From: Pseudomonadota bacterium
Lineage (GTDB): Bacteria > Pseudomonadota > Gammaproteobacteria > Burkholderiales > Burkholderiaceae_C
NCBI GenBank assembly: GCA_019351955.1
Contig: JABBOE010000023.1
Coordinates: 1-36,851, forward strand
Direction of reading: 5' to 3'
DNA length: 36,851 nt
The notes under the pieces are model-generated. The model saw nothing but the letters and a program-made list of their open reading frames with translations, searched no databases and was not told where the DNA came from. How positions within the stretch are numbered: the first letter of the stretch is position 1; the number at the start of each line of letters is the position of its first letter. Position numbers and translations under genes: made by a program. Shown in pieces: positions 13,744-29,871 of this stretch.

Positions 13744-14034
13744 ATGTCCGTGCCACAAACACCTGCATTAACCACCGAACCTGCGCTTCTGCTCGATTTG
13801 GCGGGCTTGATTATCGAATCGCTCAACCTCGAGGTAGCCCCCACTGAGATCGACCCTGATGCACCGCTGTATGGCGATGGCCTGGGGCTGGATTCGATCG
13901 ACATTCTCGAGCTCGCCTTGGTCGTTTCCAAGAATTTTGGCGTACAACTCCGAGCTGACGACGCGAACAACCAGCAGATCTTTAGTTCCCTGCGCAGCTT
14001 GGCCAATTACGTGGCCGTCCACCGGACACATTGA
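13744..14034 (+). CDS. Acyl carrier protein of the aryl-polyene pathway
   Basis: This 96-residue acyl carrier protein carries the growing polyene chain as a thioester. The phosphopantetheine attachment serine is Ser51 in 'GLGLDSIDILEL'. The four-helix ACP pattern follows, and the protein is acidic as expected. Aryl-polyene clusters normally encode one or two such ACPs (ApeE/ApeF type); only this one is visible here. The start at 13744 has no strong ribosome binding site. A possible extended -10 (TGTGCATACT near 13710-13720) lies just upstream but is weak. It is the first gene of the operon; the next begins one base after its stop. Confidence 0.9.
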   Translation: MSVPQTPALTTEPALLLDLAGLIIESLNLEVAPTEIDPDAPLYGDGLGLDSIDILELALVVSKNFGVQLRADDANNQQIFSSLRSLANYVAVHRTH

Positions 14035-14035
14035 C

Positions 14036-14725
14036 ATGCGCTGGCGCGCTGTCATGCAAGGCGCCTTTATCGCCGCAGCAAGCGTGACCTATGCGGCGGC
14101 GAGCTACGTCTGCGCCCGGTCGGCCCACCCCACCCTGCTGGGTGCGGGACTCGCTTACGCGCCCTTGTTGTTGGGCGGCGTGTGGATGGCTCGAAAGTCG
14201 CTGCGTCGCATCCGTGCCCTTGCCTTCGTGGTGCTTGCGGCGCTGGTCCTGTGGTTTGCTCGCGATGTACTCCTGCAACACTACCGCTGGGGATATCTGG
14301 TCGAAAGCGCCGGATCGATGACCCTGCTTTCCCTCCTCTTTGGCAGCAGCCTGCGGCGTGGCCATGTGGCCCTGATCACACAACTTGCGCTCTTGGCGCA
14401 TGATGGCCATATTTCCGCACGCACATCGCGTTACACACAGGGTCTGACATGGGCCTGGACTGTCTTTTTTGCCGTCATGGCTTCGGTGTCGATCGCCTTG
14501 TTTCTCATGGCCGCGCCAGCGGTATGGTCCTTGTTCGCCAACGTGCTGGTTGCGCCGCTTGTGGCCACCATGTTCGTCGGCGAGTACGGCGTGCGGGTTC
14601 TGCTGCTCCCCGCGCACGAGCGCACCGGCCCCTTGAAGGCCGTGACGGCCTTCATGCGCTATCGCAGACTTGGCAGTGCGCCAACCGTGCCGTTACAGCC
14701 AGCCATCGGCTCGCAGACGCGCTGA
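14036..14725 (+). CDS. Polytopic membrane protein of the polyene operon (COG4648-like)
   Basis: The 229-residue product has about six hydrophobic segments (around residues 8-24, 34-50, 60-77, 87-103, 140-160 and 168-185), with a cytoplasm-type loop containing 'ALLAHDGHISARTSRYTQGLTWAW'. Membrane proteins of this kind regularly sit between ACP and ligase genes in aryl-polyene loci, often with the misleading label 'DNA gyrase subunit B'. The biochemical role is unknown; it may organise the synthesis complex at the membrane. The ATG follows the ACP stop by one base, so the two are translationally coupled. Confidence 0.8.
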   Translation: MRWRAVMQGAFIAAASVTYAAASYVCARSAHPTLLGAGLAYAPLLLGGVWMARKSLRRIRALAFVVLAALVLWFARDVLLQHYRWGYLVESAGSMTLLSLLFGSSLRRGHVALITQLALLAHDGHISARTSRYTQGLTWAWTVFFAVMASVSIALFLMAAPAVWSLFANVLVAPLVATMFVGEYGVRVLLLPAHERTGPLKAVTAFMRYRRLGSAPTVPLQPAIGSQTR

Positions 14726-14773: not shown

Positions 14774-14783
14774 CCCATCTTCG

Positions 14784-16157
14784 ATGCTGATGCAACTGCC
14801 GCTCGTCTCCTGGCTGTCCACCGACGACATACTGGCTTGGCGCGATGGCCACGCCCTAAAGGTGCGCGACTTCCTGCTTGACGTGCAATCCCTTGCAAGC
14901 CGCCTCCCGGCGAACGGCTACGTCCTCAACGTCTGCAAAGACCGCTACCGCTTTCTGGTGGGGTTCGGCGCCTCGGTCACCACCGGAAAGATCAGCCTTC
15001 TGCCGTCAACGCGCACGCCCGAATCGATCCGCCAACTGCGCAACCTGGCTCCTGATGCGTTCTGCCTGAGCGACCATGACGATGGCATCCAACTGCCGCG
15101 TGTCGCCTATGCCGATCGCGACGTCGGTTGCGACGCGACCGCCATGGGAAACATGCCGCACATCGAAGCCGACCGTGTGGTGGCGCACGTCTTCACCTCC
15201 GGCTCCACCGCAGCCCCGGTGCCCCATCCAAAGACCTGGGGATCGCTTGCTGAATGCGTGCAGGCCGGCGCCTTGCGCCTGGGCCTTCGCGACGGCCGCG
15301 CCCATGCTCTGGTGGGCACGGTTCCCCCTCAGCACATGTACGGTTTCGAGTCGACAGCGCTCATGGCACTGCATGGCTGCGTGGCCATGAGCGCCGAGCA
15401 GCCGTTCTATCCAGCCGACGTTGCCGCCGCACTAACGCGCATCCGCGCTCCGCGAATGCTGGTCACATCGCCCGTGCACCTGCGCGCACTGCTTGCGGCC
15501 CATGTGCACATCCCCCCCTTGAGCTTGGTCTTGTCGGCCACAGCCCCGCTGCCACGGGATCTGGCACAAGAGGCCGAGAGCCGCCTGAACGCCCCTCTTG
15601 TGGAGATCTACGGCTCGACCGAAACCGGCCAGATTGCCACCCGCCGCACGGCACGCACCGATGTCTGGGAGCTTTTTCCCGGGGTGCGCCTGGAGCCCGA
15701 ACCGCATGGGCACGTCCGAGTCACGGGCGGACATCTCGCCCAAGCGCAGGTGCTGCACGACGTCATTGAAATCGTCGACGATCGCCGCTTTCTCTTGCAC
15801 GGACGCGGCGCCGACATGATCAACATCGCCGGCAAACGCAGCTCTCTGGTTCACCTCAACCATCAACTCACCAGCATCCCCGGCGTGCAAGACGGCGCGT
15901 TCTTCATGCCCGACGCTGGCGCGGGCGGGTCCGTGGCCCGACTGATGGCCTTCGTCGTCGCTCCCGCGATTGATCCCGCCGTCGTGCGCGAGGCACTGCG
16001 CGAACGCCTTGACCCGGCATTCATGCCGCGACCGCTGGTTTTTGTCGATACCTTGCCGCGCAATGCAACGGGCAAACTCCCTCGCGCCGCTTTGTCCGCG
16101 TTGGCCGCACGTGCACCGGCACGACACCTCATCGACGATGACAACCATGCCGACTGA
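14784..16157 (+). CDS. AMP-forming aryl-acid ligase (acyl-ACP synthetase)
   Basis: This 457-residue member of the adenylate-forming superfamily probably activates the aromatic starter acid and loads it onto the ACP, the job of ApeH-type ligases. Visible motifs are the phosphate-binding 'FTSGSTAAPVPHPK' (residues 137-150), 'EIYGSTETGQI' near 280, 'HGRGADMINIAGKR' near 345 and the C-terminal catalytic lysine in 'RNATGKLPR' (about Lys431). The protein is shorter than many CoA ligases, as is usual for these stand-alone enzymes. ATG 14784 or 14790 are both possible. The stop overlaps the following dehydratase start. Confidence 0.88.
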   Translation: MLMQLPLVSWLSTDDILAWRDGHALKVRDFLLDVQSLASRLPANGYVLNVCKDRYRFLVGFGASVTTGKISLLPSTRTPESIRQLRNLAPDAFCLSDHDDGIQLPRVAYADRDVGCDATAMGNMPHIEADRVVAHVFTSGSTAAPVPHPKTWGSLAECVQAGALRLGLRDGRAHALVGTVPPQHMYGFESTALMALHGCVAMSAEQPFYPADVAAALTRIRAPRMLVTSPVHLRALLAAHVHIPPLSLVLSATAPLPRDLAQEAESRLNAPLVEIYGSTETGQIATRRTARTDVWELFPGVRLEPEPHGHVRVTGGHLAQAQVLHDVIEIVDDRRFLLHGRGADMINIAGKRSSLVHLNHQLTSIPGVQDGAFFMPDAGAGGSVARLMAFVVAPAIDPAVVREALRERLDPAFMPRPLVFVDTLPRNATGKLPRAALSALAARAPARHLIDDDNHAD

Positions 16158-16458
16158 ATTGCTGACGGCTCCGCCTGCCGAGCACCCTGTTTATGCGGGG
16201 CACTTTCCCGGCAGTCCCATCGCACCGGGAGCGATGTTGCTCGACAGTGTCGTGCACGCCGTGTGCCTAGGCTGCGGCCTTGACGAAAGCGCGTGGCACG
16301 TTGCATCGGTGAAGTTTTTCTCGCCCGTCGTGCCCGGAGAGACACTGGAACTGCGCCAAGACAGCACGAGCTCGGGGCTCGTGACATTCAGCCTGCACGC
16401 CGGCACGCGTGTGGTCGCCCGCGGCCGCCTGCGCGTGGCCGATGGATCCGTTCGATGA
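16147..16458 (+). CDS. Hotdog-fold 3-hydroxyacyl-ACP dehydratase (ApeI/FabZ-like)
   Basis: The 103-residue product is a short hotdog-fold protein with the FabA/FabZ-type motif 'YAGHFPGSPIAPGAMLLD' (about residues 16-33), including the catalytic His19. It should remove water from 3-hydroxyacyl chains to form the conjugated double bonds. Aryl-polyene pathways use a pair of such subunits; the second is at 23912. The start is uncertain between ATG 16138 and 16147, both overlapping the end of the ligase gene. Its stop overlaps the next start as ATGA. Confidence 0.85.
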   Translation: MPTELLTAPPAEHPVYAGHFPGSPIAPGAMLLDSVVHAVCLGCGLDESAWHVASVKFFSPVVPGETLELRQDSTSSGLVTFSLHAGTRVVARGRLRVADGSVR

Positions 16459-17465
16459 GCCCGCACTTACCTCCACCCTCTGGGAAACAAACTGGTGCCG
16501 CGCCAGGGCCACCCCGCGTTTCCGCGCCCAGCCGGCAGGCTCAATGGGTACAGAACGCCGAACGCAGCAACATGCTGATGCTGCGCATCATGACCTGGAT
16601 TTCCCTGCGATTGGGGCGACGCGCGGCTCGTGTCGTCCTGTCTGGCATCGCCGCGTACTTCCTGGTGTTCGCCCCCGCGGCGAGACGCGCTTCGCGCCAA
16701 TACCTGGCGCGAGCGCTCGGGCGTGCACCCCGCATAGGGGACAGCTTTCGCCAGTTTTTCAGCTTTGCCTCGACCATTCACGACCGGGTCTATCTGCTCA
16801 ATGGTCGTCTCGACCTCTTCAGCATCCGTGTGCACGGGCAGGAGGTCATCGAGGCGGCATTGAACCGTGGTGAAGGCGTGTTCATGGTCGGCGCTCATTT
16901 CGGCAGTTTTGAGGTCCTGCGTGCCATTTCACACCAGCGCCCGGGCCTGCGTGTGTGCATGCTGATGTACGAGGGCAACGCGCGCAAGATCAATGCCGCG
17001 CTCAAGGCGATCAATCCCCTGGCCGAACATGACGTCATTGCGCTCGGCCACCCCGAGTCGATGCTTCGCCTGCGCGATGCACTCGATGATGGCGCAATCA
17101 TCGGCATACTGGCCGACCGCTCGCTGCACGACGACGAAACCGTGTGCGTACCCTTCCTCGGCAAGCCCACACGCTGGCCCGCTGGCCCCTGGCGCATCGC
17201 CGCTCTTCTGCGCAAACCTGTCGTCATGGCTCTTGGCGTTTACGGTGGCGGGAATCGCTATGACGTGTATTTCGAATCCTTAGCCGATTTCTCCAACACA
17301 GACCGGCGAGCTCGCAGCGAGGCCGAACATGCAGCGCTTGCGACGTATGTACAACGCCTGCAGGCCCATTGCGAGCGCGAGCCCTACAACTGGTTCAATT
17401 TTTTCGACTTCTGGAGCCGCAGTGCGCAACCGACAGCGCCCCCCGCAAAGCCCGAAACGCCATGA
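16455..17465 (+). CDS. LpxL/HtrB-type lysophospholipid acyltransferase
   Basis: The 336-residue product resembles lipid A late acyltransferases of the LpxL family: an N-terminal hydrophobic segment (about residues 58-75) and the catalytic His-x4-Glu in 'VGAHFGSFEVLR' near residue 150. The motif region 'ILADRSLHDDETVCVPFLGKP' is also typical, as is the C-terminal 'EPYNWFNFFDFW'. In aryl-polyene loci such enzymes are thought to transfer the polyene chain or a fatty acyl group onto the lipid anchor. The acceptor is not known here. ATGA overlaps join it to both neighbours. Confidence 0.86.
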   Translation: MSPHLPPPSGKQTGAAPGPPRVSAPSRQAQWVQNAERSNMLMLRIMTWISLRLGRRAARVVLSGIAAYFLVFAPAARRASRQYLARALGRAPRIGDSFRQFFSFASTIHDRVYLLNGRLDLFSIRVHGQEVIEAALNRGEGVFMVGAHFGSFEVLRAISHQRPGLRVCMLMYEGNARKINAALKAINPLAEHDVIALGHPESMLRLRDALDDGAIIGILADRSLHDDETVCVPFLGKPTRWPAGPWRIAALLRKPVVMALGVYGGGNRYDVYFESLADFSNTDRRARSEAEHAALATYVQRLQAHCEREPYNWFNFFDFWSRSAQPTAPPAKPETP

Positions 17466-18058
17466 AACTGCTATTCCTTCTTAGCCTTTGCCTCCGCGCC
17501 GGCCTGGCTGCCGCGGCACTGTTGTGGGCGATTGGTGGACTGGCCGCCGGGTGGAATCTGCAGACGCTGATGCAGGCACTGGTACAGCATCATGGTGGCC
17601 GCGCCGATTTCACGGAGACCAAGACCCTCGCCATGCTGAACAAACCCATCGAGTCATCTGGCGAATTGCGATTCGCGGCACCGGACTTCCTGCAGGTGCG
17701 CACGCTCAAGCCCAGGCGGCAGACCTTGACCCTGATGGGCAATCAGCTCACGATGGAAGCAAGCGGACACTCGCAGCAGTTCGACCTGCGTGAACATCCC
17801 GACGTCGCCACCCTCATCGACGGCATCCGCGCCACACTCAACGGCGACCTTGACTCCCTGCAACGCCACTACGACCTGACCCTGGATGGCCAGGCCGCGC
17901 AATGGACCCTCACCCTGGTTCCGCGCGACGTCAAGGCGCATGAGCACATCAGTGACATCCGCATCAGCGGGATTGAAGGCATCGTGCAAACGGTCACCGT
18001 GGAGCAGGCCGACGGTGACCGCTCCGTCATGCACATCCACCCTGCCGCTTCGCCATGA
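17462..18058 (+). CDS. LolA-like periplasmic lipid carrier
   Basis: The 198-residue protein has a long hydrophobic N-terminus (residues 4-29), acting as a signal peptide or anchor, followed by a LolA/LolB-like half-barrel pattern: 'ADFTETKTLAMLNKPIESSGELRF' near residue 48 and 'LQVRTLKPRRQTLTLMGNQL' near residue 78. Proteins of this type in pigment clusters are proposed to carry the lipidated polyene across the periplasm. It is joined by ATGA overlaps to the acyltransferase before and the exporter after, so the three probably work as one transport module. Confidence 0.86.
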   Translation: MKLLFLLSLCLRAGLAAAALLWAIGGLAAGWNLQTLMQALVQHHGGRADFTETKTLAMLNKPIESSGELRFAAPDFLQVRTLKPRRQTLTLMGNQLTMEASGHSQQFDLREHPDVATLIDGIRATLNGDLDSLQRHYDLTLDGQAAQWTLTLVPRDVKAHEHISDIRISGIEGIVQTVTVEQADGDRSVMHIHPAASP

Positions 18059-20421
18059 ACCGGCGCGCGGCTGTCCCCGTGCTGCTCTGGCTGGCCGTGC
18101 TTCTGGCCTGCGCGGTCGTCATCGTCAAGAGTCGATTCACTGCGGACATGTCGGCCTTCCTGCCGCAGGCGCCCACGGCCCAGGAGCGTATCCTGGTGGA
18201 CCAACTTCGCCGCGGCCTGGTCTCGCGACTCATCCTCGTCGGCATTGACGGTGCTGACGCCGCGACACGCGCTGATCTGTCGAAGTCGATAGCTGCACGC
18301 CTGCGCGCGGATCCCGCCTTCGTCGCCGTGGAGAACGGCCAACCCCTGAACGCACAACGCGACGAGCAATTGCTGTTCCAGTACCGTTACGTGCTGTCGC
18401 CCAATACTGCGTCTCAGTTCAGCGTCCTGGGGCTGCACCGCGGCATTACCAACAGTATCGATCGCCTCGCCTCGCCCATGGGGCAAAGCCTCAAAGCGCT
18501 TCTCCCCACCGACCCCACCGGCGCGCTGCTGGACCTCGTGCAGGGTCTTTCGCCGGGCCAGGGGCCCAAGCGAGACCACGGCGTATGGGCCGCAGCTGGG
18601 GCGCCGCGCGCCTTGCTGCTGGTGCAAACCCGGGCGCAAGGCACCGACACCGATGCCTTGCAACAGGCCATGGCGACCATCCGCGACGACTTCGCCAAGG
18701 CGCAGCGTCAGGGCGGTGCAGACGCGCGGCAGGCCACCCTGGTGATGAGCGGCCCGGGAGTATTCGCTGTGCAGTCGCGAGCGCTGATCAAGCGCGCGGT
18801 GGAGCGCGTTTCGCTCCTCGGCGCCGTGCTCATCGCCGGCTTGTTGCTCCTCGTCTATCGCTCGCCGACGGTCTTGGCATTGGGTCTGCTCCCGGTGTTG
18901 TCGGGGGTGCTGGCTGGCATCGCCGCCGTCAGCCTTGGCTTCGGCGCGGTGCAGGGCGTGACTCTGGGCTTTGGCACAACGCTCATGGGCGAGGCGGTGG
19001 ACTACGCGATCTACCTCTTTGTGCAGTCCACTCAGCCCTCCGCCGCCGACCGTGCCCTCTGGCTTCAGAGCTTCTGGCCCACCGTCCGTTTGGGCATGCT
19101 GACTTCGGTTTTTGGCTTTGCCACGCTGCTGATGTCGGGCTTCCCCGGCCTGGCTCAGCTTGGCCTGTATTCCATCGCTGGTCTGCTCGCCGCAGCGCTC
19201 GTCACGCGCTTTGTGCTGCCGCAATTGATGCCCGCGCGCCTGTCGATGCGCGACCTCGCCCCCTTCGGCGCATACCTGACAGCCCGGCTGCCAGGGCTGC
19301 GGCGCCTGCGCTGGTTGCTTGGCGTCACCGTGGTAATTGCCAGCGGCGTGCTCATCGTGCAACGCGATGCCCTGTGGAATACGCGACTCGCCGCACTCAG
19401 CCCCGTGACCCCTGAGGCACTGAAGGTGGATGCTCAGCTGCGCCGCCAGCTCGGCGCGCCTGATTCGGGCAACCTGGTGGTCGTCCAAGGGACCAGTTCA
19501 GACGCTGCGTTGACTGCGGCCGAGGCGCTGGTCCCCCGCCTGCAGAATCTGGTGTCGCGCGGCGTCATCACCGGCTTCGACAGCCCAGACCGGTACCTTC
19601 CGAGTGCAGCCACCCAGCGCCGCCGTCTCGCAGCGCTGCCCGATGCGGACGATCTGCAGCGCCGGCTGGAGCAGGCCGTCATCGGACTGCCGGTGAGCGC
19701 CCGATTGTTCGCGCCATTTGTGCACGATGTGCAGGCTGCGCGCGCGCAGGGCCCGCTCACGCGTAGGCAGCTGGCGCATACCTCCTTTGCGCTGGCCCTC
19801 GATGGCATGCTGCTTCGCCAGACGGATGGACGCTGGCTCGCCGTGCTGCCGCTGCATGCCCAGGCAAACCGGAGCATCGATGGCGCGCAGGTGCGAGCTG
19901 CATTGGCTGGCACTCCAGCAAGCTACATCAACCTTGGCCAGCTCAGCAACAGCCTCTATGACAGCTACCTGCACACTGCAGCCTGGCTATCGCTGACGGG
20001 CCTGGCGTGCATTGCTGCACTGCTCGTGGTCAGCCTGCGCTCCGCCTCTCGCACGCTACGGGTGCTTGCTCCCCTTCTGAGCGCGGTACTTGTGGTCGGC
20101 GCCGGGCTGCTGCTGGGTGGACAGCAACTGACTTTGCTGCACCTCATCGGCCTCATGCTCATCGTCGCTGTCGGCTCGAACTACGCGCTGTTTTTCGATC
20201 AGGGCGCGCAACGAGGCGGCATTGCGCCGCGCACGCTGGCCTCGCTAGTGGTTGCCAATCTCACCACTGTGCTCGGCTTCGGGCCGTTGGCCTTGTCCGG
20301 CGTGCCTGTTCTGCAAGCCCTAGGGATGACGGTAGGCCCCGGCGTGCTGCTGGCTCTGGTGTTTTCGGCCATACTGTCGGCCTCACCGTCCACCACCACG
20401 CGGCCACCAGCTGCCGTCTAA
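18055..20421 (+). CDS. MMPL/RND-superfamily exporter
   Basis: The 788-residue inner-membrane protein has the two-fold RND layout: a first TM helix (about 7-24), a large periplasmic domain, a bundle of five to six helices (about 245-430), a second periplasmic domain and a second bundle (about 640-780). The motif-bearing helix region 'LGFGTTLMGEAVDYAIYLF' near residue 300 and its counterpart 'LMLIVAVGSNYALFFDQG' near residue 700 are typical of MMPL-type lipid exporters. It is expected to export the finished polyene lipid across the inner membrane, handing it to the LolA-like protein. The ATG overlaps the upstream stop. Confidence 0.9.
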   Translation: MNRRAAVPVLLWLAVLLACAVVIVKSRFTADMSAFLPQAPTAQERILVDQLRRGLVSRLILVGIDGADAATRADLSKSIAARLRADPAFVAVENGQPLNAQRDEQLLFQYRYVLSPNTASQFSVLGLHRGITNSIDRLASPMGQSLKALLPTDPTGALLDLVQGLSPGQGPKRDHGVWAAAGAPRALLLVQTRAQGTDTDALQQAMATIRDDFAKAQRQGGADARQATLVMSGPGVFAVQSRALIKRAVERVSLLGAVLIAGLLLLVYRSPTVLALGLLPVLSGVLAGIAAVSLGFGAVQGVTLGFGTTLMGEAVDYAIYLFVQSTQPSAADRALWLQSFWPTVRLGMLTSVFGFATLLMSGFPGLAQLGLYSIAGLLAAALVTRFVLPQLMPARLSMRDLAPFGAYLTARLPGLRRLRWLLGVTVVIASGVLIVQRDALWNTRLAALSPVTPEALKVDAQLRRQLGAPDSGNLVVVQGTSSDAALTAAEALVPRLQNLVSRGVITGFDSPDRYLPSAATQRRRLAALPDADDLQRRLEQAVIGLPVSARLFAPFVHDVQAARAQGPLTRRQLAHTSFALALDGMLLRQTDGRWLAVLPLHAQANRSIDGAQVRAALAGTPASYINLGQLSNSLYDSYLHTAAWLSLTGLACIAALLVVSLRSASRTLRVLAPLLSAVLVVGAGLLLGGQQLTLLHLIGLMLIVAVGSNYALFFDQGAQRGGIAPRTLASLVVANLTTVLGFGPLALSGVPVLQALGMTVGPGVLLALVFSAILSASPSTTTRPPAAV

Positions 20422-20433: not shown

Positions 20434-21273
20434 ATGCCAGTGTCCAGCCCCGTACCTCAGCCGGCGAGCGGCGCCGGCTGGCGGCCCGCGCCGCTCGTCG
20501 CCGGCTCCCTAATCTTGCACCCGCTTGTGCTCGGCGTCGTGGTCGTTCAGCCCACCCTATGGCCCTGGGGGCTGAGTATCCTGGCGGTCAACCACATGGT
20601 GCTCGCGGGCGCCGGGCTGTGGCCGCGCAGCAAACTTCTCGGCACCAACCACACACGTCTGCCCGACACAGCGGTGGCGCGCGGCGAAGTCGCGCTGACC
20701 ATCGATGACGGGCCCGACCCGCTCGTGACGCCAGGCGTGCTTGACGTCCTTGATGCGCACAACGCCAAGGCCACATTTTTTTGCATCGGCGAGCGCGCCA
20801 GTGCGTACCCGGACCTGTGCCGTGACATCGTGCGGCGCGGCCACGCCGTGGAAAATCACAGTCACAGTCACCGCCACAGCTTCTCGTTGTCCGGTCCTCG
20901 CCGCATCCTCCGCGAATTGCAGGCCGCCCAGGCCACGCTGTCTGGCATCACCGGACAGGCACCGGCCTTCTTCCGCGCTCCAGCAGGGTTGCGCAACCCC
21001 TTCCTCGACCGGGTTCTGAGCCGACTCGGCCTGCAGCTGGCGAGCTGGACCCGGCGCGGCTTCGATACGCGCGAACGTGATCCAATGAGGGTTCTGCATC
21101 GCCTGCGGCATGCCATGCGCGCGGGCGATATCCTGCTGCTGCACGATGGCCATGCGGCGCGCACAGCATCGGGGCAACCCGTCATTCTCGAAGTGCTACC
21201 TAGCCTGTTGGACTCCATCGCCAGCCTTGGGCTGCGCCCCGTCACCTTGCGTCAAGCCTTTTCATGCGCGTGA
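20434..21273 (+). CDS. NodB-type polysaccharide deacetylase, membrane-anchored
   Basis: The 279-residue product has an N-terminal hydrophobic region (about 20-62) and a carbohydrate esterase family 4 (NodB) domain. The metal/catalytic Asp pair is in 'TIDDGPD' (89-95) and the zinc-binding His pair in 'HSHSH' (142-146). Later motifs include 'FFRAPAGLRNP' (about 180-190) and 'GDILLLHDGH' (about 232). All five typical motifs appear, so it is probably active. The natural substrate is presumably an N-acetylated sugar on the pigment or its anchor. It follows the exporter gene by 12 bases. Confidence 0.87.
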   Translation: MPVSSPVPQPASGAGWRPAPLVAGSLILHPLVLGVVVVQPTLWPWGLSILAVNHMVLAGAGLWPRSKLLGTNHTRLPDTAVARGEVALTIDDGPDPLVTPGVLDVLDAHNAKATFFCIGERASAYPDLCRDIVRRGHAVENHSHSHRHSFSLSGPRRILRELQAAQATLSGITGQAPAFFRAPAGLRNPFLDRVLSRLGLQLASWTRRGFDTRERDPMRVLHRLRHAMRAGDILLLHDGHAARTASGQPVILEVLPSLLDSIASLGLRPVTLRQAFSCA

Positions 21274-21707: not shown

Positions 21708-21712
21708 CCACC

Positions 21713-22939
21713 ATGGCCACCACGACACTGCCGCCCATGGCGCTAACGCGCTACACCGTCAGTAGCTGCTTAGGGCATGGGTTGGCGCCCACGCTCGATG
21801 CCTTGCGCGGCACGCTCAGCGGGCTGCGCCCCGAAGGCTTCGACCTGTTTGACCTGCCAGCCTGGACCGGTGCCGTGCCCGACGTGGATGCAGTGCGGCT
21901 GCCGCAAGCCCTGCAAGATTACGATTGCCGCACCAACCGCTTGGCCGAACTCGGCCTGCATCAAGACGGATTCGCCGCAGCCGTGCGGCAAGCCGCTGCA
22001 CGCGTGGGACCGCACCGCGTGGGAGTTTTTATCGGAACCAGCACATCTGGAATTCTGCAGACCGAACGGGCCTACCGTGAACGCGATGCCACAGGCGCCT
22101 TACCCGCCTCCTTCAGGTATGCCCAGACGCACAATCCGTATTCGGTCACTGCCTATGTGCGCGAGCGCCTCGGCCTGCGCGGGCCCGCCTACACGATTTC
22201 GTCGGCCTGCTCGTCTAGCGCGAAGGTCTTTGCCACGGCCCAGCGCCTGCTCGCTTGCGGCGTCATCGATGCCGCTGTCGTCGGCGGTGTCGACAGTCTG
22301 TGTTTGACCACGCTCTATGGCTTTAACTCACTTCAACTGATGTCCGGCGATTCCTGCCGCCCGTTTGACGCGCAACGCAATGGCTTGTCCATCGGCGAAG
22401 GGGCCGCCTTCGCACTGCTGGAGCGCGTCGCACATCCCGTTGCTCAAGACACCGTATGGCTCCTCGGCGCAGGCGAATCCAGCGATGCCCACCACATGTC
22501 ATCGCCCCATCCGGACGGGATGGGTGCGCGCATGGCAATGCAGCAGGCGCTTACCCAGGCGCACCTGAATCCCCTCGATATCGACTACATCAACTTGCAC
22601 GGCACTGCGACAGCCAGCAATGACTTAGCCGAGGGCCGCGCCGTTGCTGCGGTGTTTGGTGCTGAAACGCCATGTAGCTCAACCAAGGGTGCCACTGGCC
22701 ATACCTTAGGCGCCGCAGGCGCGGTCGAGGCCGTGTTCTGCGCACTTGCCCTGCGCCATGGCTTCATGCCTGGGGGCGCCGGCACGCAGGCCCTGGATCC
22801 GGCAATCACGGCGGCCGCCGGCCCGCTCAATTACCTGCTGCAAATCCGCGCTCAGGCACCGCACCGGGTGCTCAGCAACTCCTTCGGCTTCGGCGGCACC
22901 AATTGCTGCCTGGTGTTCGGCGTGGGGGAACCAGGATGA
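21713..22939 (+). CDS. Beta-ketoacyl-ACP synthase (ketosynthase)
   Basis: The 408-residue product is a FabF-type condensing enzyme with a complete active site: nucleophile Cys166 in 'SSACSSSAKVF', His296 in 'LHGTATASND' and His330 in 'KGATGHTLGAAGAVE'. The C-terminal glycine-rich 'SFGFGGTNCCLVF' is also present. It should elongate the aryl starter with malonyl-ACP units, the ApeO-type role, pairing with the chain-length-factor-like protein at 23088. AGAGG lies about ten bases before ATG 21713. The stop overlaps the next possible start as ATGA at 22936. Confidence 0.92.
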   Translation: MATTTLPPMALTRYTVSSCLGHGLAPTLDALRGTLSGLRPEGFDLFDLPAWTGAVPDVDAVRLPQALQDYDCRTNRLAELGLHQDGFAAAVRQAAARVGPHRVGVFIGTSTSGILQTERAYRERDATGALPASFRYAQTHNPYSVTAYVRERLGLRGPAYTISSACSSSAKVFATAQRLLACGVIDAAVVGGVDSLCLTTLYGFNSLQLMSGDSCRPFDAQRNGLSIGEGAAFALLERVAHPVAQDTVWLLGAGESSDAHHMSSPHPDGMGARMAMQQALTQAHLNPLDIDYINLHGTATASNDLAEGRAVAAVFGAETPCSSTKGATGHTLGAAGAVEAVFCALALRHGFMPGGAGTQALDPAITAAAGPLNYLLQIRAQAPHRVLSNSFGFGGTNCCLVFGVGEPG

Positions 22940-23091
22940 GCCCCCCGCCCTACTGGGAAAAAGGGGTCGAACCCTTTCAAGGAATAGAGCGCAACACCCG
23001 GGGCCCGAGCGCAAGCCTTCGACACATCTGCTCGGCAGAGGGCGGCCACCTTCTTCAAGGGAACCTGCAAAATGCGAGGCAACTGCAATGA
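22936..23091 (+). CDS. Possible 51-aa protein bridging the two ketosynthase genes
   Basis: A 51-codon frame begins at ATG 22936, overlapping the ketosynthase stop as ATGA, and ends at TGA 23089-23091, overlapping the start of the next gene also as ATGA. Two such junctions are the strongest evidence that it is translated; without it the operon would have an unusual 148-base gap. The product begins 'MSPPPYWEKGVEPF' and shows no motif I know. Codons such as ATA, AGG and CGA and the modest third-position GC (about 65 percent) weaken the case. An alternative is a leader whose translation simply feeds ribosomes to the next gene. Confidence 0.4.
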   Translation: MSPPPYWEKGVEPFQGIERNTRGPSASLRHICSAEGGHLLQGNLQNARQLQ

Positions 23092-23918
23092 ACCACGCCA
23101 CGACACCCGCCGCCCGGCTTGAAGCATGGGTTGACGGCGTTGGGTTGCTCGGGCCTGGCCTTGCGGGCTGGCCACAGACGAGCTCCGTGCTGCGCGGGCA
23201 AGCCGATTACACCCCGCAAAGGACGCTGCTTCCCGTGCCGCAAACCTTGCATGCGGCGGAACGGCGACGCGCAGCAACCGTGGTCAAGCTTGCCTTGGCC
23301 GTCGGGCTTGAGGCGGCACAGGCTGCCGGAATGGACCCGGCACAACTTGCCACGGTGTTCACCTCATCCGGCGGTGACAGCCACAATTGCCACGCCGTTT
23401 GTGCAGCGCTTGCGTCAAACGATCGGCTGATCTCCCCCACGCGCTTTCACAACTCGGTACACAACGCCGCATCCGGCTACTGGGGCATCGCCACGGGCGC
23501 CATGGCGTCTTCTGCCGTGCTGTGCGCCTATGACGGTTGTTTTTCTGCCGGCCTGCTGGAGGCGCTCGCCCAGGTGGTATTGACGCAGGCGCCGGTCCTG
23601 CTTCTGGCCTACGACACGGACTATCCCGAGCCACTGCTTACAGTACGCCCCATTCCCGACAGTCTGGGCGTCGCACTTGCCCTGTCCCCGCAACCGGGTC
23701 CGCTAAGTCTGGGCCGCGTCGCCATCGATTCGGCGGCGCCATACAGCGACGCGGCTGCCAATACGCTGGACATTCCGCTTCTCGAAGCCGTGCGCCAAAC
23801 GATACCCGCGGCGCGCGTCCTTCCCCTTCTTCATGCGCTGGCCCACCGTGCTGCTGGGTCCGTACACCTGGACTACTTGCCTGGCCAGACGCTGGCTACC
23901 GAGATCACGCCATGCTGA
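23088..23918 (+). CDS. Chain-length-factor-like ketosynthase
   Basis: The 276-residue product matches the short N-terminal ketosynthase family (Ketoacyl-synt_2) found in aryl-polyene loci. It reads like half a thiolase-fold ketosynthase: 'TVFTSSGGDSHNCHAVC' near residue 86, 'ISPTRFHNSVHNAASGYWGIATG' near residue 112. At the elbow where active ketosynthases carry Cys, the sequence runs 'GAMASSAVLCAYDG', so no catalytic Cys is in place. It likely forms a heterodimer with the ketosynthase at 21713 and limits chain length, like ApeC. GAGG precedes ATG 23088. The stop overlaps the next start by seven bases. Confidence 0.86.
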   Translation: MNHATTPAARLEAWVDGVGLLGPGLAGWPQTSSVLRGQADYTPQRTLLPVPQTLHAAERRRAATVVKLALAVGLEAAQAAGMDPAQLATVFTSSGGDSHNCHAVCAALASNDRLISPTRFHNSVHNAASGYWGIATGAMASSAVLCAYDGCFSAGLLEALAQVVLTQAPVLLLAYDTDYPEPLLTVRPIPDSLGVALALSPQPGPLSLGRVAIDSAAPYSDAAANTLDIPLLEAVRQTIPAARVLPLLHALAHRAAGSVHLDYLPGQTLATEITPC

Positions 23919-24436
23919 ACGTTGCCACTTTGCATGGTCAGGCGCTCGACCACGACTGGATCGCTGCGCGCATTCCGCATCAGGGCACGATGTGCTTACT
24001 CGATAGAGTGCGCGCATGGGATGCGGGGCATGTTCTGTGCACCGCCCAAAGCCACCGCAGTCCCACCAACCCGCTGCGCCAATACGGCCGACTGGGCGCG
24101 GCCTGTGGCATCGAATATGCTGCCCAGGCCATGGCCGTGCATGGTGCGCTGCGTGCGTCCGGTCGGCCGGTTACTGCGCCGCATCCCGGCATGCTGATTA
24201 GCGCGCGTGACGTGCGCTGGCATGTGGCGCGACTCGACACCATTGCCACGGAGCTCCTGGTGCTTGCGACCTGCCGTGCGGCCGATGCCAACCTGCTGCG
24301 CTATACGTTCGAATTGCGCGCTGAAGAACGCGTGCTGATCGAAGGCCAAGCCACGGTGATGCTCGATGTGCATGCACCCGACATCCCGGGACTTGGCCTG
24401 ACAGCATCCATCACCGACGCCCGAACCACACCATGA
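23912..24436 (+). CDS. Hotdog-fold dehydratase subunit (ApeP-like)
   Basis: The 174-residue product is a hotdog-fold protein with 'IPHQGTMCLLDRV' near residue 20, the FabZ-like catalytic His region, and 'GAACGIEYAAQAMAVHGAL' near residue 65, the central hotdog helix with a conserved acid. It should act with the ApeI-like subunit at 16147 as a dehydratase that creates the trans double bonds. The ATG lies inside the end of the upstream gene, and its stop overlaps the ketoreductase start as ATGA. Confidence 0.87.
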   Translation: MLNVATLHGQALDHDWIAARIPHQGTMCLLDRVRAWDAGHVLCTAQSHRSPTNPLRQYGRLGAACGIEYAAQAMAVHGALRASGRPVTAPHPGMLISARDVRWHVARLDTIATELLVLATCRAADANLLRYTFELRAEERVLIEGQATVMLDVHAPDIPGLGLTASITDARTTP

Positions 24437-25176
24437 GCAAACCCGTGTTCGCGCATTCCCGCCGCGCCCTGGTCACGGGTGGCAGCGGAGAGATCGGTTC
24501 CGCCATCTGCCGACGCTTGGCTGCTGACGGCTGCCACGTCATCGTGCATGCCAACCGCGGCATCGACCGCGCCGACGCCCTCGCTGCCACGCTGCGTGAG
24601 CAGGGTTGCAGCGCGCAGACCGTGTGTTTTGACATCACCGATCCCAACGCCACGGCCGCCGCCATTGCCGGCGTTCTAGCGCACGGCCCCATTCAGGTTC
24701 TCGTGAACAACGCTGGAGTGCATGACGATGCTGTATTTCCTGGCATGACGGCTGCGCAATGGCAGCATGTGATTGATGTCAGCATCAACGGTTTTTTCCA
24801 TGTCACCCAGCCCCTCATGCTCCCCATGATCCGTACCCGCTGGGGCCGCATCCTGAACATCACCTCGGTGGCTGCCATCACCGGCAACCGTGGCCAAGTC
24901 AACTATGCCGCGGCCAAAGGCGCGCTGCACGCGGCCACCAAGTCGCTCGCCCTCGAGGTGGCGAGCCGTGGCATCACGGTCAACGCCGTGGCCCCCGGCA
25001 TCATCGCCACGGCCATGAGCGCCAGTGCGTTCGACGCCGAGACCATTGCGCGGATGGTCCCGATGAAACGCGCCGGCCGACCTGAAGAAGTGGCCGACTT
25101 GGTGGGCTTTCTCGCCTCCGACCATGCCGCGTATATCAGTGGCCAAATCGTATCCATCAACGGCGGCATCATCTGA
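24433..25176 (+). CDS. 3-oxoacyl-ACP reductase, FabG-like ketoreductase
   Basis: The 247-residue short-chain dehydrogenase has a TGGSGEIG cofactor loop (15-22), NNAG at 92-95, and the catalytic Ser145, Tyr158 and Lys162 in the order of classical SDRs. Its end 'YISGQIVSINGGI' is typical of FabG. It should reduce the 3-keto group after each condensation with NADPH, the ApeQ-type role. It is the last gene of the rightward operon and faces the leftward glycosyltransferase gene. Confidence 0.92.
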   Translation: MSKPVFAHSRRALVTGGSGEIGSAICRRLAADGCHVIVHANRGIDRADALAATLREQGCSAQTVCFDITDPNATAAAIAGVLAHGPIQVLVNNAGVHDDAVFPGMTAAQWQHVIDVSINGFFHVTQPLMLPMIRTRWGRILNITSVAAITGNRGQVNYAAAKGALHAATKSLALEVASRGITVNAVAPGIIATAMSASAFDAETIARMVPMKRAGRPEEVADLVGFLASDHAAYISGQIVSINGGII

Positions 25177-25270: not shown

Positions 25271-26068
25271 TCACCGCATGATCAATCGCCGCCACAGCAG
25301 CAGCGGCAGCCGCAGAACGAAGCCCATCAAAAGCCGCGTGTGCATCCAGGTGAGAAGCGCGTTGTCGCGCAAATACTGGAAGTGTGAGACCCCGCCCTCC
25401 TCGGGGAGCAGGTAGCGCACCGGCGCGGGAAGGTTGAGCGCTTGCACGCCGCGCCAGCTCAGTCGCACCACAGCCTCAGGATCGAAGTCGAAGCGACGCA
25501 TCCATGATTGACGGTGCATGATCCGGCGCAGGGGCTGGACGGGATAGACGCGAAAACCGTACAGCGAATCCCCGATGCCGGCCCACAGAGTCTCCAGATT
25601 GGCCCAGGCGTTTGATACCTTGCGCCCTTGCACACGCAGCTTGGGCGCGCTGGAGTCGAACACCGGCAGGCCCAACACCATGGCATTCGGATGCTCCTGC
25701 GACGCGGCCATGAAGCTGACGATCCGGGCGGCAGGGTGCTGCCCGTCGCAGTCCATGGTCAGCGCATGCGTGTAGCCCGCAGCTGCGGCAGCATCCAGGC
25801 CATGCAGAACGGCGGCGCCCTTGCCTCGATTCTTGGGCAGGACCATCACACGCAACTGTGGATCGCCTGCAGCCAGCGTCTGCAGGCCTTCGGCGGTTCC
25901 GTCCGTGCTACCGTCCACGATCACCCAGACCGGTGCCCAGTGCGCGCGCGCCGCACGGACGGTGTCGTAAACCTTGGCGCCCGGGTTGTAGCTGGGAATG
26001 AGTACCAGATGCGTGGACGAAGGTCGCGGCTGCTTGCCTTGGGTGTTCTCCAGAGATGTCTCAGTCAT
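25271..26068 (-). CDS. Family 2 glycosyltransferase
   Basis: The 265-residue product has a GT-A fold start 'LVLIPSYNPGAKVYDTVRAA' (about residues 21-40), 'VIVDGSTDGT' near residue 50 and the metal-binding region 'TMDCDGQHP' near residue 103. These features mark a family 2 glycosyltransferase. The C-terminal part has hydrophobic stretches (about 238-262) suggesting membrane association. In pigment loci of this type a glycosyltransferase is thought to decorate the lipid anchor. Its ATG overlaps the end of the PlsC-type acyltransferase gene by eight bases, and it is the last gene of the leftward set. Confidence 0.87.
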   Translation of the reverse strand: MTETSLENTQGKQPRPSSTHLVLIPSYNPGAKVYDTVRAARAHWAPVWVIVDGSTDGTAEGLQTLAAGDPQLRVMVLPKNRGKGAAVLHGLDAAAAAGYTHALTMDCDGQHPAARIVSFMAASQEHPNAMVLGLPVFDSSAPKLRVQGRKVSNAWANLETLWAGIGDSLYGFRVYPVQPLRRIMHRQSWMRRFDFDPEAVVRLSWRGVQALNLPAPVRYLLPEEGGVSHFQYLRDNALLTWMHTRLLMGFVLRLPLLLWRRLIMR

Positions 26069-26867
26069 CGCCCTCGGCTCGCGTCGGCGATAAGGGCGGG
26101 CCTGCGTCAGCCAGCGCGCTGTCGAAATAAGCCTCGAGTTCGGCTACGAACTTTTGCACGTCCTGGGGGGCTGCAAACCTGCGCCCCAGGCGTAGGCGAT
26201 AGGTAACGGGCAGTCGAGGACGTCGAAACAGGGGCCACCCCTTGGCAAGAAAAGGGGAATCCATCTCGATGAGCACGGTCTGCACCGGAACCTGCGCCTG
26301 CTTGGCAATAAGCCCGACGCTGCCGCGCACCGGTCCGATGGGCAGACGTGTGGAGCGCGTGCCCTCGGGAAAGAGAAGAAGGTGGTGGCCCTGGCGCAGG
26401 TCAGCCACGGCGAGCGCGATCATGTTGCGCAGTGAATCATTGCGGATGTAGCGCGCCAGGCGCGCGCCAGCGCCCAGCGATGGGTTGTCGAGAATGCTTG
26501 CCTTCATGATGCACGCCAGCCCTGGCAGGCGTGAGAAGACAAGAACCGCATCGATGAGCGATGGATGGTTGGGCGCGATGATCATTGGCGGCTGCCCCCG
26601 CAATGCGTCCAGCGCCGAAAGATCGAAGCGGCAGGCGCCGATGGCTGCGAGCGTGCGAAGGTAAAAGCGAAATGCGTGGTAGACAAACGAGCGTCCGAGC
26701 GCAATCCCGAACCGGCGCGGCAGAATGTAGTAAAGCGGCGCTGCAAGCAGCGACCACAGGAAACCCAGAACCCCGAGCATTCCCAACCCGAAATACAGGC
26801 GCAACACATCCCACACAGTCCGAAGGTAACCCTGCAACGGCACTGCGCGCATCACATCATCATTCAT
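26061..26867 (-). CDS. PlsC-type 1-acylglycerol-3-phosphate acyltransferase-like protein
   Basis: The 268-residue product has an N-terminal membrane region (about 20-48), the catalytic His-x4-Asp in 'APNHPSLIDAVL' near residue 95, and the substrate-binding 'LFPEGTRSTR' near residue 170. It therefore belongs to the lysophospholipid acyltransferase family. Within this locus it may attach a fatty acyl group to the glycerol backbone of the polyene lipid. The ATG at 26867 overlaps the end of the MipA-type gene, and an in-frame extension upstream lies inside that gene and is rejected. Confidence 0.87.
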   Translation of the reverse strand: MNDDVMRAVPLQGYLRTVWDVLRLYFGLGMLGVLGFLWSLLAAPLYYILPRRFGIALGRSFVYHAFRFYLRTLAAIGACRFDLSALDALRGQPPMIIAPNHPSLIDAVLVFSRLPGLACIMKASILDNPSLGAGARLARYIRNDSLRNMIALAVADLRQGHHLLLFPEGTRSTRLPIGPVRGSVGLIAKQAQVPVQTVLIEMDSPFLAKGWPLFRRPRLPVTYRLRLGRRFAAPQDVQKFVAELEAYFDSALADAGPPLSPTRAEGDD

Positions 26868-27699
26868 GACTTTCAACCATTTGTGATGACTGCCCAAGGA
26901 TCCAGGCAATGCCGATACCCGCAGACAAATTGTGCTGCCGTCGCACCAGCGGGCTGTCGGCAAAAACCGCACCGGACACATTGTCGTAGCGAGTGAACGC
27001 CCCCACCCAGAAGCCGGCAAAACGCTTGCTCAGGGCCAACGTGAACTGACGGCCTGCGTACCCACCTTGGGCGCTGTAGGCAGGCCGAATCGGCGTGGCA
27101 TCGGATGGTGCCACACCATAGAGGGTCTGGGTATAGCTGCGGTCCGCGAAAATGGGTCCGGCCTGCGCTCCGAGGTTCCACCCCTGCATCCCCGCCACGT
27201 CGGCCATGTCCAGATTCAGCACGGGCGCCAGCAGCCACCCGACTTCGCGCGGATGGGACTCGACGGTGAATACCGTGCGCAACGGGACCCGAAAGTCAAG
27301 GCGCATGCTTCGCGCGGAGGACACCCACAAGTGCACCTTCAGCGCCGGGCCGAATTCGACCATGGGCTTGAGGTCGGCCATGCCGCTGCGTGCGCGGTTG
27401 TCGGTGCTGTTGACAGGCGGCGAGGCGCCAAGGCTGAGATATGCGTCGGCATGCGCGCTGCCAAACAGCCGCGCCTGCACGCCATTGCGGTCAGCTCTGA
27501 TGATCGGGCCACGGTAGACGAAATAGGGCACGGGCAGGATGTAGGTGTGCTGTTGGTCGGAGCCCACGTAATCGGGGAAACTCAGCGCCCCGACACCCAG
27601 ACCTGCCTCCCAGAGCGGCACTTGGGCCGCTTGGGCACGCGCCGGCAAAGCGCCCAGTGCCAAGCTGGTCAAAGCAGCCAGAATGCGACTATTGAACAT
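26860..27699 (-). CDS. MipA/OmpV-family outer-membrane protein
   Basis: The 279-residue product has a signal peptide (about residues 1-25, ending near ALPARAQAA) and the MipA/OmpV pattern: 'WEAGLGVGALSFPDYVGSDQ' at the mature N-terminus, many alternating aromatic strands, and a C-terminal beta strand. It should be a small outer-membrane barrel or scaffolding protein. It leads a leftward set with an acyltransferase and a glycosyltransferase, with eight-base overlaps between genes. ATG 27699 was chosen because the signal peptide follows directly; the open frame continues to 28293 without protein character. A TATATT box lies about 20 bases upstream but has no clear -35. Confidence 0.87.
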   Translation of the reverse strand: MFNSRILAALTSLALGALPARAQAAQVPLWEAGLGVGALSFPDYVGSDQQHTYILPVPYFVYRGPIIRADRNGVQARLFGSAHADAYLSLGASPPVNSTDNRARSGMADLKPMVEFGPALKVHLWVSSARSMRLDFRVPLRTVFTVESHPREVGWLLAPVLNLDMADVAGMQGWNLGAQAGPIFADRSYTQTLYGVAPSDATPIRPAYSAQGGYAGRQFTLALSKRFAGFWVGAFTRYDNVSGAVFADSPLVRRQHNLSAGIGIAWILGQSSQMVESHE

Positions 27700-28530
27700 G
27701 GATTTGGTATCAATATAAAAAGCGCCTCCGCGCACACGGTTGTCTTCCTGTCCCGGCCCACGCCTCTGTACGAAGGCGCTGCGAACCAGCCGCTCCTTCC
27801 CACCTCCGGCAAGGGCCATCCAACCCGCAGTGCGCCCTCTTTCTGTTGCGAGCCGCTCACAAGGCCATCGACAGCGAGGCAGTTTGACCACTTCTTGCGC
27901 CGGCGCTGCGCACGCTTCTGCGCGACGTTGCGGACGTTTCACATGAGGTTTACGTCGAAACTCTAGCGCGCCAAACAGGCCGAGCGCGACTTGGACCAGC
28001 AACGATCCAGCGCGATGATCGCGACATCTTATCGAACTGGATAAAAATCCAGCCATGAAAAGTTCCTCCCGCCGCCTCGCGCCTGCACCCCTTTTCTTCG
28101 CAGCATGCGTGCCGCAAAGGAACAGCGCAATCGCGCAGGATAGCCCAGCGCCTGCACAGCACAGCCGGCGTACGCTTCCCTGGCGGCGCGGCGCATCGCA
28201 GCTGGGGTCTTGAGCGCGCGACCCGAGCCTGACCTGGCCTCCATCGTGAGCCATCTGCCAGACGCGATCCCTGCACGGCAACCATGCCCTCACCGTCCAT
28301 GGTCATCTCGGGAAACGCAACATCGGCTGTCCTGACGTCGCGCCGATCAACACGGAACGCCCTCGCGCAATCCAACTGAAAAGAGCGCATGCCTGGCGGT
28401 ATGCGCGTGCCATACCGCAAACGCACACGGCCGAACAGGCAACGGCAGTGCAGAATCGAAAGCGGTCGCGCCATGGACCCCGTGCAACGTGTCTGGTCGC
28501 CTCCACTGGCCTTTCAAGCCGCCGAAACCC
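27700..28530. other. Large gene-free interval between MipA and the flavin enzyme
   Basis: This 831-base stretch is the longest gap in the window. Frames on both strands (for example a minus-strand extension of the MipA frame and a plus-strand frame at 28389-28640) have Arg/Ser/Cys-rich shadow character and no motif. A 54-codon plus-strand frame at about 28054-28218 starts with basic then hydrophobic residues but lacks a ribosome binding site and is not called. The right part may be a transcript tail for the flavin enzyme; the left part should hold the MipA promoter. Confidence 0.5.
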
Positions 28531-29871
28531 TCATCGGTCGCCTGCCCCCTTCAACGGCTGCGTGCAAATCTGGCGCCGACGTTGACGCGCTGCCCGCCAT
28601 GTCCGGCCCGGACGGTGCAATGCAGAGAGGTAGAAGATGACCTTGAACCGGCGAAGGGCGTTCCAGATCGGCGTACTTCCAAAAATATCACCAGCCAACA
28701 TCGACAATAGCGCCTCCTTGACCCGCCAGATGTTGCGGGGTCCCATGAACATGTCGCGCATGGTGGGGTGGTTCACGCGGTAGATGAACCAGGAAAACGC
28801 ATGCGGGCCAAAGCGGATCGCGCGATCGAACCGGAGCAAAGCTTGCTTCGCTCGCGAGGGCTGGCGCAAGCAGGTCTCCACCGTCTCTGCAGCAATAAAG
28901 CCGCCTTGCATGGCCAACATCACGCCGGAGGAAAACACCGGGTCGATGAAAGCGTAGGCGTCGCCAATGAGCAGGTAGCCTGCCCCATGTGTGCGTTCGC
29001 TGCTGTATGAGAAATTCCCGGTAGCCTCGACTTCGGACACCCGCGTCGCCGCCTTCAGTCGCTCGGACAGTTCGGGGGACATCGCGATGGTGTCGGAAAA
29101 GAACCGGTCAAGCGACTTGTCGCGCGTCCTGAGGTAATAGGGCCAGACGACAGCACCCACGCTGGTCGTACCGTCGGCCAGAGGAATAAACCAGAACCAG
29201 CCATGATCGAACCAGAAAATCGAGATGTTTCCCTGATCTTTGCCAGCGTGCCATTGCGCCCCGGTGAAATGGGCATAGAGTGCGGCGCTGTTGTGCCTCG
29301 GGTTACGACGCTTGAGTTTGAGGCGACTTGCCAAGAAGGTGTCGCGTCCCGAAGCGTCAATGACGTAGCGTGCGCTCCACTCCACTTGGCTTCCGTCCTC
29401 GTGCGCGACGTTGACGATTGCGCGCTGTGCGTCCGCGGCAAACTGCACGTCGCGCACCGCGCAGCCCTCCATGACCTGCGCGCCCTTTCGTGCGGCGTTG
29501 CGAATCAGGATGTGGTCGAACTCCGATCGCCTGACCTGATAAGCCATCGGCATGGACTTGTTCCAGGCGTCGGCGAAGGCATATGTTTGCGATTTCTGCG
29601 CGTGCCACGGTGACACAAACTCCGCACCCCATTTTTCCATCGCAATTGCTCGAACCTCGTCGGCCACGCCAAGCCTATCCAGCAAGGGCAGATTGGCTGG
29701 AAGCAGGGATTCGCCGATATGAAAGCGCGGGTGCCGGGACTTCTCAATCAGAATCACCTGCAACCCTCGTTCGGCCAACAGGGCCGCGGCAGTCGATCCA
29801 GCCGGACCTCCGCCAATGATCAGGGCGTCAACCGACATTTGCGGCAGAGGCTTGCGGCTGTGCGGCTGCAT
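28531..29871 (-). CDS. Flavin-dependent halogenase-like oxidoreductase
   Basis: The 446-residue product has the FAD-binding GGGPAGS (20-26) and the flavin-halogenase-like 'FHIGESLLPANL' (50-61). Lys80, in 'MEKWGAEF', lies where flavin halogenases keep the catalytic lysine, and W225-F-W-F-I-P230 fits the WxWxIP signature. 'LIGDAYAFIDPVFSSGV' is the second FAD motif. Homologues occur in xanthomonadin and other aryl-polyene clusters, where halogenation of the aryl ring is known or suspected, but related monooxygenases and reductases share part of this pattern. The TTG at 29880 overlaps the upstream ATPase stop; ATG 29871 is preferred. It is on the opposite strand to the ketosynthase operon. Confidence 0.8.
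   Translation of the reverse strand: MQPHSRKPLPQMSVDALIIGGGPAGSTAAALLAERGLQVILIEKSRHPRFHIGESLLPANLPLLDRLGVADEVRAIAMEKWGAEFVSPWHAQKSQTYAFADAWNKSMPMAYQVRRSEFDHILIRNAARKGAQVMEGCAVRDVQFAADAQRAIVNVAHEDGSQVEWSARYVIDASGRDTFLASRLKLKRRNPRHNSAALYAHFTGAQWHAGKDQGNISIFWFDHGWFWFIPLADGTTSVGAVVWPYYLRTRDKSLDRFFSDTIAMSPELSERLKAATRVSEVEATGNFSYSSERTHGAGYLLIGDAYAFIDPVFSSGVMLAMQGGFIAAETVETCLRQPSRAKQALLRFDRAIRFGPHAFSWFIYRVNHPTMRDMFMGPRNIWRVKEALLSMLAGDIFGSTPIWNALRRFKVIFYLSALHRPGRTWRAARQRRRQICTQPLKGAGDR

Follow-up and report, generated by a model that had tools for sequence, protein, structure and literature searches.

A halogenase-linked aryl polyene gene cluster with an apparently decayed starter synthase gene in a probable Thiomonas genome

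Results

Gene content and setting of the locus

The window, positions 1-36,851 of contig JABBOE010000023.1 in the draft bacterial assembly GCA_019351955.1 (3.87 Mb, 282 contigs, 99.62% complete), carries 16 genes of an aryl polyene (APE) type pigment cluster and a remnant of arcB/xanB2, the chorismatase gene for the starter, 3- or 4-hydroxybenzoate (Table 1). A preliminary description of this DNA had listed the cluster genes; every gene named there was found, and translation of the window showed no internal stop in any of the 16. Matches in Pfam or NCBIfam supported 14 of them, the exceptions being the membrane protein and the second hotdog dehydratase (DH2). Neighboring cluster genes mostly overlap or are separated by no more than about 120 bp, and larger gaps separate the ketosynthase (KS) from the chain-length-factor-like protein (CLF; 148 bp), the NodB-type deacetylase from the KS (439 bp), and MipA from the halogenase-like gene (831 bp). 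The two largest of these, which the preliminary description does not mention, contain no recognizable gene. The identical gene order recurred in many of the loci that we fetched from other genomes, and the cluster is therefore not a chance arrangement.

From halogenase matches in named genomes, we infer that the window belongs to the genus Thiomonas, known from acid and metal sites. The halogenase of Thiomonas delicata DSM 16361 was 76% identical to that of the window over residues 1-444, and that on a contig of a betaproteobacterial metagenome-assembled genome was 95% identical. A search of one literature collection pairing Thiomonas with yellow pigment turned up no paper, and there was no mention of Thiomonas among the matches listed by a search combining the genus with polyene terms. 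The genus sample used below consists of 28 genomes, including that of the window (G000).

Gene starts in Table 1 are our own choice. The signatures given for the acyl carrier protein (ACP), KS, ketoreductase (KR), ligase, deacetylase, and acyltransferase are ones that we take to be characteristic of these enzymes. A PAP2-family membrane protein gene (12074-12796) lies divergent from the operon. Several relatives have a PAP2 gene beside a second FabB/F-type ketosynthase near the ACP gene, and none such was seen in the window.

Table 1 Features of the aryl polyene-type locus in the window.
Feature	Position	Strand	Evidence
ACP (arcV-like)	13744..14034	+	GLDS at residue 48; PF00550 E 6.8e-10; NF006617 above cut-off
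Membrane protein (arcU-like by position)	14036..14725	+	No Pfam or NCBIfam match; position kept in relatives
AMP-forming aryl acid ligase (arcT-like)	14784..16157	+	PF00501, PF13193; TSGST, PRNATGKLPR
Hotdog dehydratase 1 (arcS/ApeI-like)	16138..16458	+	PF07977; 6qsr_A E 3.1e-5, 4th of 27 PDB matches
LpxL-type acyltransferase (arcR-like)	16578..17465	+	PF03279 E 9.9e-14
LolA-like periplasmic carrier (arcQ-like)	17462..18058	+	PF19574; NF053544 (flexirubin LolA2) below its cut-off
MMPL/RND exporter (arcP-like)	18055..20421	+	PF03176
NodB-type polysaccharide deacetylase (arcN-like)	20434..21273	+	PF01522 E 3e-30; TIDDGPD
KS (arcK/ApeO-like)	21713..22939	+	NF006618 534 bits vs cut-off 407; 7f28_B E 5.3e-74; ACSS, HGTA, GHTLG
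CLF-like protein (arcJ/ApeC-like)	23088..23918	+	PF13723; PDB matches to E 0.1: 7f28_A, 6qsp_B only
DH2 (arcI/ApeP-like)	23912..24436	+	No Pfam family; sole PDB match to E 0.1: 6qsr_B, E 0.0013
FabG-type KR (arcH-like)	24433..25176	+	PF00106, PF13561; YAAAK
Family-2 glycosyltransferase (arcE-like)	25271..26068	-	PF00535
PlsC-type acyltransferase (arcD-like)	26061..26867	-	PF01553; NHPSLID
MipA outer membrane protein (arcC-like)	26860..27699	-	PF06629 E 4.6e-39
arcB/xanB2-type chorismatase remnant	28137..28341	-	Matches nt 206-414 of the intact T. delicata gene; rest of gene unmatched
Flavin halogenase-like protein (arcA-like), 446 aa	28531..29871	-	PF04820 E 1.1e-33; K80; WFWFIP at 225; FIDPVFSSG at 308

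Remnant of arcB between the halogenase-like gene and mipA

T. delicata encodes a chorismatase of 355 aa (PF21168, E 8e-34) between its halogenase and MipA genes. No chorismatase open reading frame (ORF) was found in the 831-bp spacer at this place in the window. On the halogenase strand, the spacer matched the T. delicata gene at 136 of 199 nucleotides with a score of 41; the scores of 1000 dinucleotide-shuffled sequences averaged 15.7 and did not exceed 26 (none as good), and the reverse strand scored 16. The remnant starts 190 bp past the halogenase stop codon (about 215 bp in T. delicata), and the same fragment (134/199) was found in the sister genome G021. In a further sister, G006, the spacer between the MipA and halogenase genes is 111 bp long and lacks arcB. 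These results indicate that arcB, the dedicated starter synthase gene, has probably been reduced to a decayed remnant in the window lineage, and the xanthomonadin-type route from 3-hydroxybenzoate (3-HBA) therefore cannot be assumed.

The spacer of G021 carries an IS605-type TnpB gene (PF01385; L098:14284-15333) at a point that corresponds to 28033 in the window, which is itself uninterrupted there. A 97% identical TnpB-like stretch with the same left junction occurs in the sister G003 (L134:2960-3967), the family scan having covered L098 only. The right flank of G003 resumes only at window position 28223, so part of the surroundings of the fragment is gone there.

Class of the cluster and its described relatives

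The closest solved chains to the KS were 7f28_B (E 5e-74) and 6qsp_A, which ranked ahead of FabF/FabB-type entries (best 60 of 144 PDB matches), and the only PDB matches of the CLF-like protein up to E 0.1 were 7f28_A and 6qsp_B. DH2 matched 6qsr_B alone; 6QSR is presumably the ApeI:ApeP pair. The window thus has a KS paired with a truncated CLF of the ApeO-ApeC type, two hotdog dehydratases (DH2 only weakly, E 0.0013) together with a KR, an ACP, and an aryl acid AMP ligase, and LolA/MMPL export genes. Passages of PMC8358021 identify 7F28 as AbApeO-AbApeC and 6QSP as ApeO-ApeC of Xenorhabdus. The class proposed in the preliminary description is therefore borne out by the ApeO/ApeC matches and by gene-by-gene agreement with the arc table of PMC3949708, and the KS did not fall with another pathway, as judged by similarity to PDB sequences and not by a KS tree. 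The ligase was assigned at the level of its family.

The layout is of the arcuflavin type, and the closest described relative is the arc cluster of Azoarcus sp. BH72. By annotation, the window has counterparts of arcA, C, D, E, H, I, J, K, N, P, Q, R, S, T, and V as listed in PMC3949708, and arcU by position; the likeness rests on annotation and not on sequence comparison. Azoarcus has its arc genes in two unlinked loci, whereas the window has a single locus, and of arcB only the remnant is present in the window. The Xanthomonas pig/xan cluster, as described in portions of PMC3691225 and PMC3838355, shares type II polyketide synthase enzymes, outer membrane transport genes, and a halogenase gene with the window, but includes the XanB2 chorismatase that the window lacks; this likeness was drawn from descriptions and not from Xanthomonas sequences. 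The Ape systems of E. coli, Xenorhabdus, and Acinetobacter provide the solved structures nearest to the KS:CLF pair and the sole match of DH2. However, the thioesterase, second ACP, DUF3261, and ApeR of Ape clusters (PMC8253772, in part) are not among the genes identified in the window, and the halogenase and NodB deacetylase of the window are not among the rows of the Ape gene table examined in that paper.

The locus of T. delicata DSM 16361 (L019/L099) has the same order as the window, and its 16 proteins are 65-86% identical (best segment). It differs in having an intact chorismatase gene and an antiporter-like gene and in lacking the 439-bp spacer. The window showed no match to a relative's antiporter-like gene at the arcG position or to a relative's methyltransferase-like gene, the latter having a match in 20 loci; both names come from reading the translations, without a family scan.

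The 439-bp spacer (21274-21712) occurs once in the genome. It was considered as a missed gene and rejected, as ORFs on both strands had no Pfam or NCBIfam match. It is 89% identical to that of G021 (391/438) without indels and matches G003 over its first part only (228/268, with indels), and there was no match above a score of 100 in the G006 stretch. In T. delicata, which lacks the spacer, the NodB and KS matches lie about 80 bp apart.

The halogenase-like gene

Among 49 PDB sequence matches of the arcA-like protein, the top six were halogenases, including ChlB4, PltA, and CmlS. The protein has GxGxxG at residue 20 and WxWxIP at 225, and in the five alignments displayed its Lys-80 (EKWG) stood opposite a lysine of the PDB halogenases. 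According to PMC10696468, the catalytic lysine is crucial in this class and WxWxIP is a key halogenase feature. Among relatives fetched with sequence patterns (the best 80 of 345 stretches), the lysine, WxWxIP, and FxxPxxSxG were kept in 80 of 80, and GxGxxG in all 79 for which this region was aligned; two of the six patterns used for fetching overlap the lysine and adjoin WxWxIP, and the count of 80/80 is thus partly built in. A second set was formed by 21 stretches (L098-L117 and L134) from genomes searched with whole proteins, 19 of which had a halogenase match. The lysine, WxWxIP, and FxxPxxSxG were kept in all 19, down to 34% identity. L134 has EKWA instead of EKWG; L134 and L018 have an identical halogenase on contigs of equal length and are apparently one contig counted twice. 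We take FxxPxxSxG to be a halogenase mark; no paper with this string was found among the literature matches listed.

The general FAD-binding family PF01494 was also above its cut-off on this protein. The best NCBIfam model was CmlS halogenase, with 205 of 900 bits (far below its cut-off), followed by the monooxygenase QhpG with 172 of 240 bits and by GG-reductases. With PF04820, the PDB matches, and the motif counts, the gene belongs to the flavin halogenase family, and a cluster-linked gene of this kind is a feature of xanthomonadin and arcuflavin clusters. The resemblance to xanthomonadins drawn in the preliminary description therefore stands for the gene; a xanthomonadin-like or halogenated product is not established by it, and the 3-HBA route is in doubt as noted above. 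In G006, only pieces of the halogenase gene were found, each at the end of a contig (L135/L136), and the frame is broken near residue 403 between two of them; the other covered cluster genes were 79-91% identical to those of the window.

Distribution of the halogenase and chorismatase genes

In the 28 genus genomes, a KS was present in 25, a full or near-full halogenase in 17, and a chorismatase in 6, and the halogenase was present in all six chorismatase genomes. These counts suggest that the halogenase is retained more firmly than the starter synthase in the genus. Counting the window's own genome, 9 of 60 relatives had a chorismatase.

We constructed a halogenase tree with IQ-TREE under its careful setting from 83 rows (82 fetched loci and the window), all of which carry a halogenase by construction. 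Chorismatase labels were taken from the fetched stretches, with flanks of up to 10 kb, and a genome-wide check was made within the genus; outside it, the label "none" may hide a chorismatase elsewhere in the genome. There were 44 rows with a chorismatase, 36 with none (window included), and 3 unjudged, and the label changed 12 times on the tree, at least 11 times as judged by well-supported branches. The window fell in a fully supported group of four rows without arcB (two apparently from one contig), whose nearest neighbor is the arcB-bearing T. delicata. A group of Polaromonas, Ramlibacter, Rhodoferax, and other Comamonadaceae-like bacteria comprised 21 rows without a chorismatase and 1 unjudged. 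Given this placement and the other rows without arcB, the loss in the window lineage looks secondary and not unique.

Starter supply in the genome and genus

A whole-genome search found no chorismatase in the window's genome. Aromatic ammonia lyase was rejected as a starter source, with no match in this or the 27 other genus genomes searched. The second chorismate lyase family, PF01947, was likewise rejected: neither the own genome nor 16 of the 17 other genus members covered by the search had a match, and its three matches in the 28 genomes all coincided with matches to UbiC. UbiC itself was above the cut-off in 14 of the 28, and G021 has two open ubiC copies. Among the 17 halogenase-bearing genomes, six had a chorismatase, six had UbiC, and three had both.

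The Azoarcus ligase ArcT is reported to activate 3-HBA as well as benzoates with a modification at position 4 (PMC3949708), and the predicted starter of the E. coli APE is 4-hydroxybenzoate (4-HBA) made by UbiC (PMC8253772). On these grounds, a cluster without arcB could run on 4-HBA. UbiC-derived supply of 4-HBA is possible in some sisters, such as G021, and is unproven for the window strain.

Selection on the cluster genes

We estimated the ratio of nonsynonymous to synonymous substitution rates (dN/dS) for the 16 cluster genes against G021 and G003, both of which lack arcB. The values were 0.10-0.49; those against G021 and G003, respectively, were 0.26 and 0.15 for the halogenase, 0.20 and 0.21 for the KS, and 0.13 and 0.20 for the ligase. 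Against the more distant G006 (dS about 0.4-0.6), the 10 cluster genes that could be aligned over more than 50 residues gave 0.08-0.20, and a 40-residue halogenase piece gave 0.29. The aligned parts contained no stops. One TGA appeared in the KS of G003 when the query started 30 bases before the later start, and none was in the dN/dS alignment. The remaining cluster genes thus look to be under purifying selection, favoring continued use of the pathway.

Discussion

The locus probably makes an aryl polyene of the arcuflavin/xanthomonadin type, with its ancestral arcB decayed, the rest of the cluster kept, and the starter drawn from elsewhere. The expected product is a yellow polyene acid whose head group is phenolic. 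The ligase would load a hydroxybenzoic acid onto the ACP, and the KS/CLF pair, KR, and two dehydratases would build the conjugated chain. The acyltransferases and the glycosyltransferase may then attach the polyene to a lipid carrier, and LolA, MMPL, and MipA may place the pigment in the outer membrane, where pigments of this kind give protection from light and oxidants. Chlorination or bromination of the ring may be the task of the halogenase. The hydroxybenzoate was presumably supplied in the ancestor by the arcB chorismatase between the halogenase and MipA; after its decay, the starter would most likely be 4-HBA drawn from general metabolism (ubiquinone), as is the case for clusters of the E. 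coli type.

Several observations weigh against parts of this reading. With two intact arcB genes from more distant loci, the scores of the remnant were just 17 and 19 (15 and 16 on the reverse strand; unshuffled). In a frameshift-tolerant protein alignment, 1 of 300 shuffles did as well as the remnant when the T. delicata protein was used, and 80 of 300 did so for the protein of L141. No arcB fragment was detected in G003 or G006. The window's own ubiC is a sub-threshold piece of about 80 residues, 74% identical to the G021 frame, and it breaks off inside a 55.9-kb contig and not at its edge (L137 = G000:C97:37000-42000, about 3013-3255). Eight of the 17 halogenase-bearing genomes, several of them incomplete drafts, had neither a chorismatase nor UbiC above the cut-off. 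The dS against the close sisters is only 0.03-0.23, and dN/dS may still be low when function has been lost only recently. Finally, no halogen is reported on arcuflavin in the part of PMC3949708 at hand despite the arcA of Azoarcus, and the gene therefore does not imply a halogenated product. The eight genomes are G000, G003, G005, G010, G015, G016, G022, and G024; their 4-HBA, needed also for ubiquinone, may have another source.

The same absence of a reported halogen on arcuflavin would fit a flavoprotein that acts as a hydroxylase or other oxidoreductase on the aryl head or the polyene without adding halogen, as would the PF01494 match and the NCBIfam ranking, in which a CmlS model far below its cut-off is followed by QhpG and GG-reductases. 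We regard this as unlikely, though it deserves serious consideration: the six best PDB matches are halogenases and not hydroxylases, and the motifs are kept in both sets of relatives. Moreover, in the excerpted text of PMC3691225, Lysobacter without the halogenase gene has a pigment without a bromine pattern, and the clusters of two Xanthomonas species have the gene in a genus whose pigments carry 0-2 Br.

A dying pathway could also explain the missing starter gene: in the absence of arcB and of any alternative supply of aryl acid, no pigment would be made, and the remaining genes would simply not have decayed yet. The genome without chorismatase or aromatic ammonia lyase and with only a truncated ubiC is what this would predict, and the fragmentary halogenase of G006 with its frame break points the same way. 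It is nevertheless improbable, since all 16 cluster genes are open in the window, dN/dS is low against G021 and G003 and also against G006, whose 111-bp spacer lacks arcB, and in many other loci without arcB the rest of the cluster is retained as far as the fetched stretch extends. Still less credible, and very improbable in our view, is an ordinary xanthomonadin locus supplied with 3-HBA by a chorismatase in an unassembled part of the genome. The assembly is indeed a draft of 282 contigs, but it is almost complete, G021 (6 contigs, 100% complete) is likewise without a chorismatase, and an eroded copy lies at the native place.

Returning to the preferred reading of a retained pathway with a starter from elsewhere, we propose tentatively an extension that is possible but falls short of probable: halogenase-bearing clusters may repeatedly have shed their starter synthase and retained all their other genes, and the window lineage may be in the middle of such a loss, now using an aromatic source other than chorismatase, intact UbiC, or ammonia lyase. 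If so, the ring substitution of the pigment and the substrate for halogenation would differ from those of xanthomonadin.

The cluster is of an ordinary type with an informative loss of its starter gene. It places a halogenase-bearing aryl polyene pathway in what is probably Thiomonas, and with the chorismatase eroded, the ring of the pigment should come from another acid, which would be para-hydroxylated if that acid is 4-HBA.

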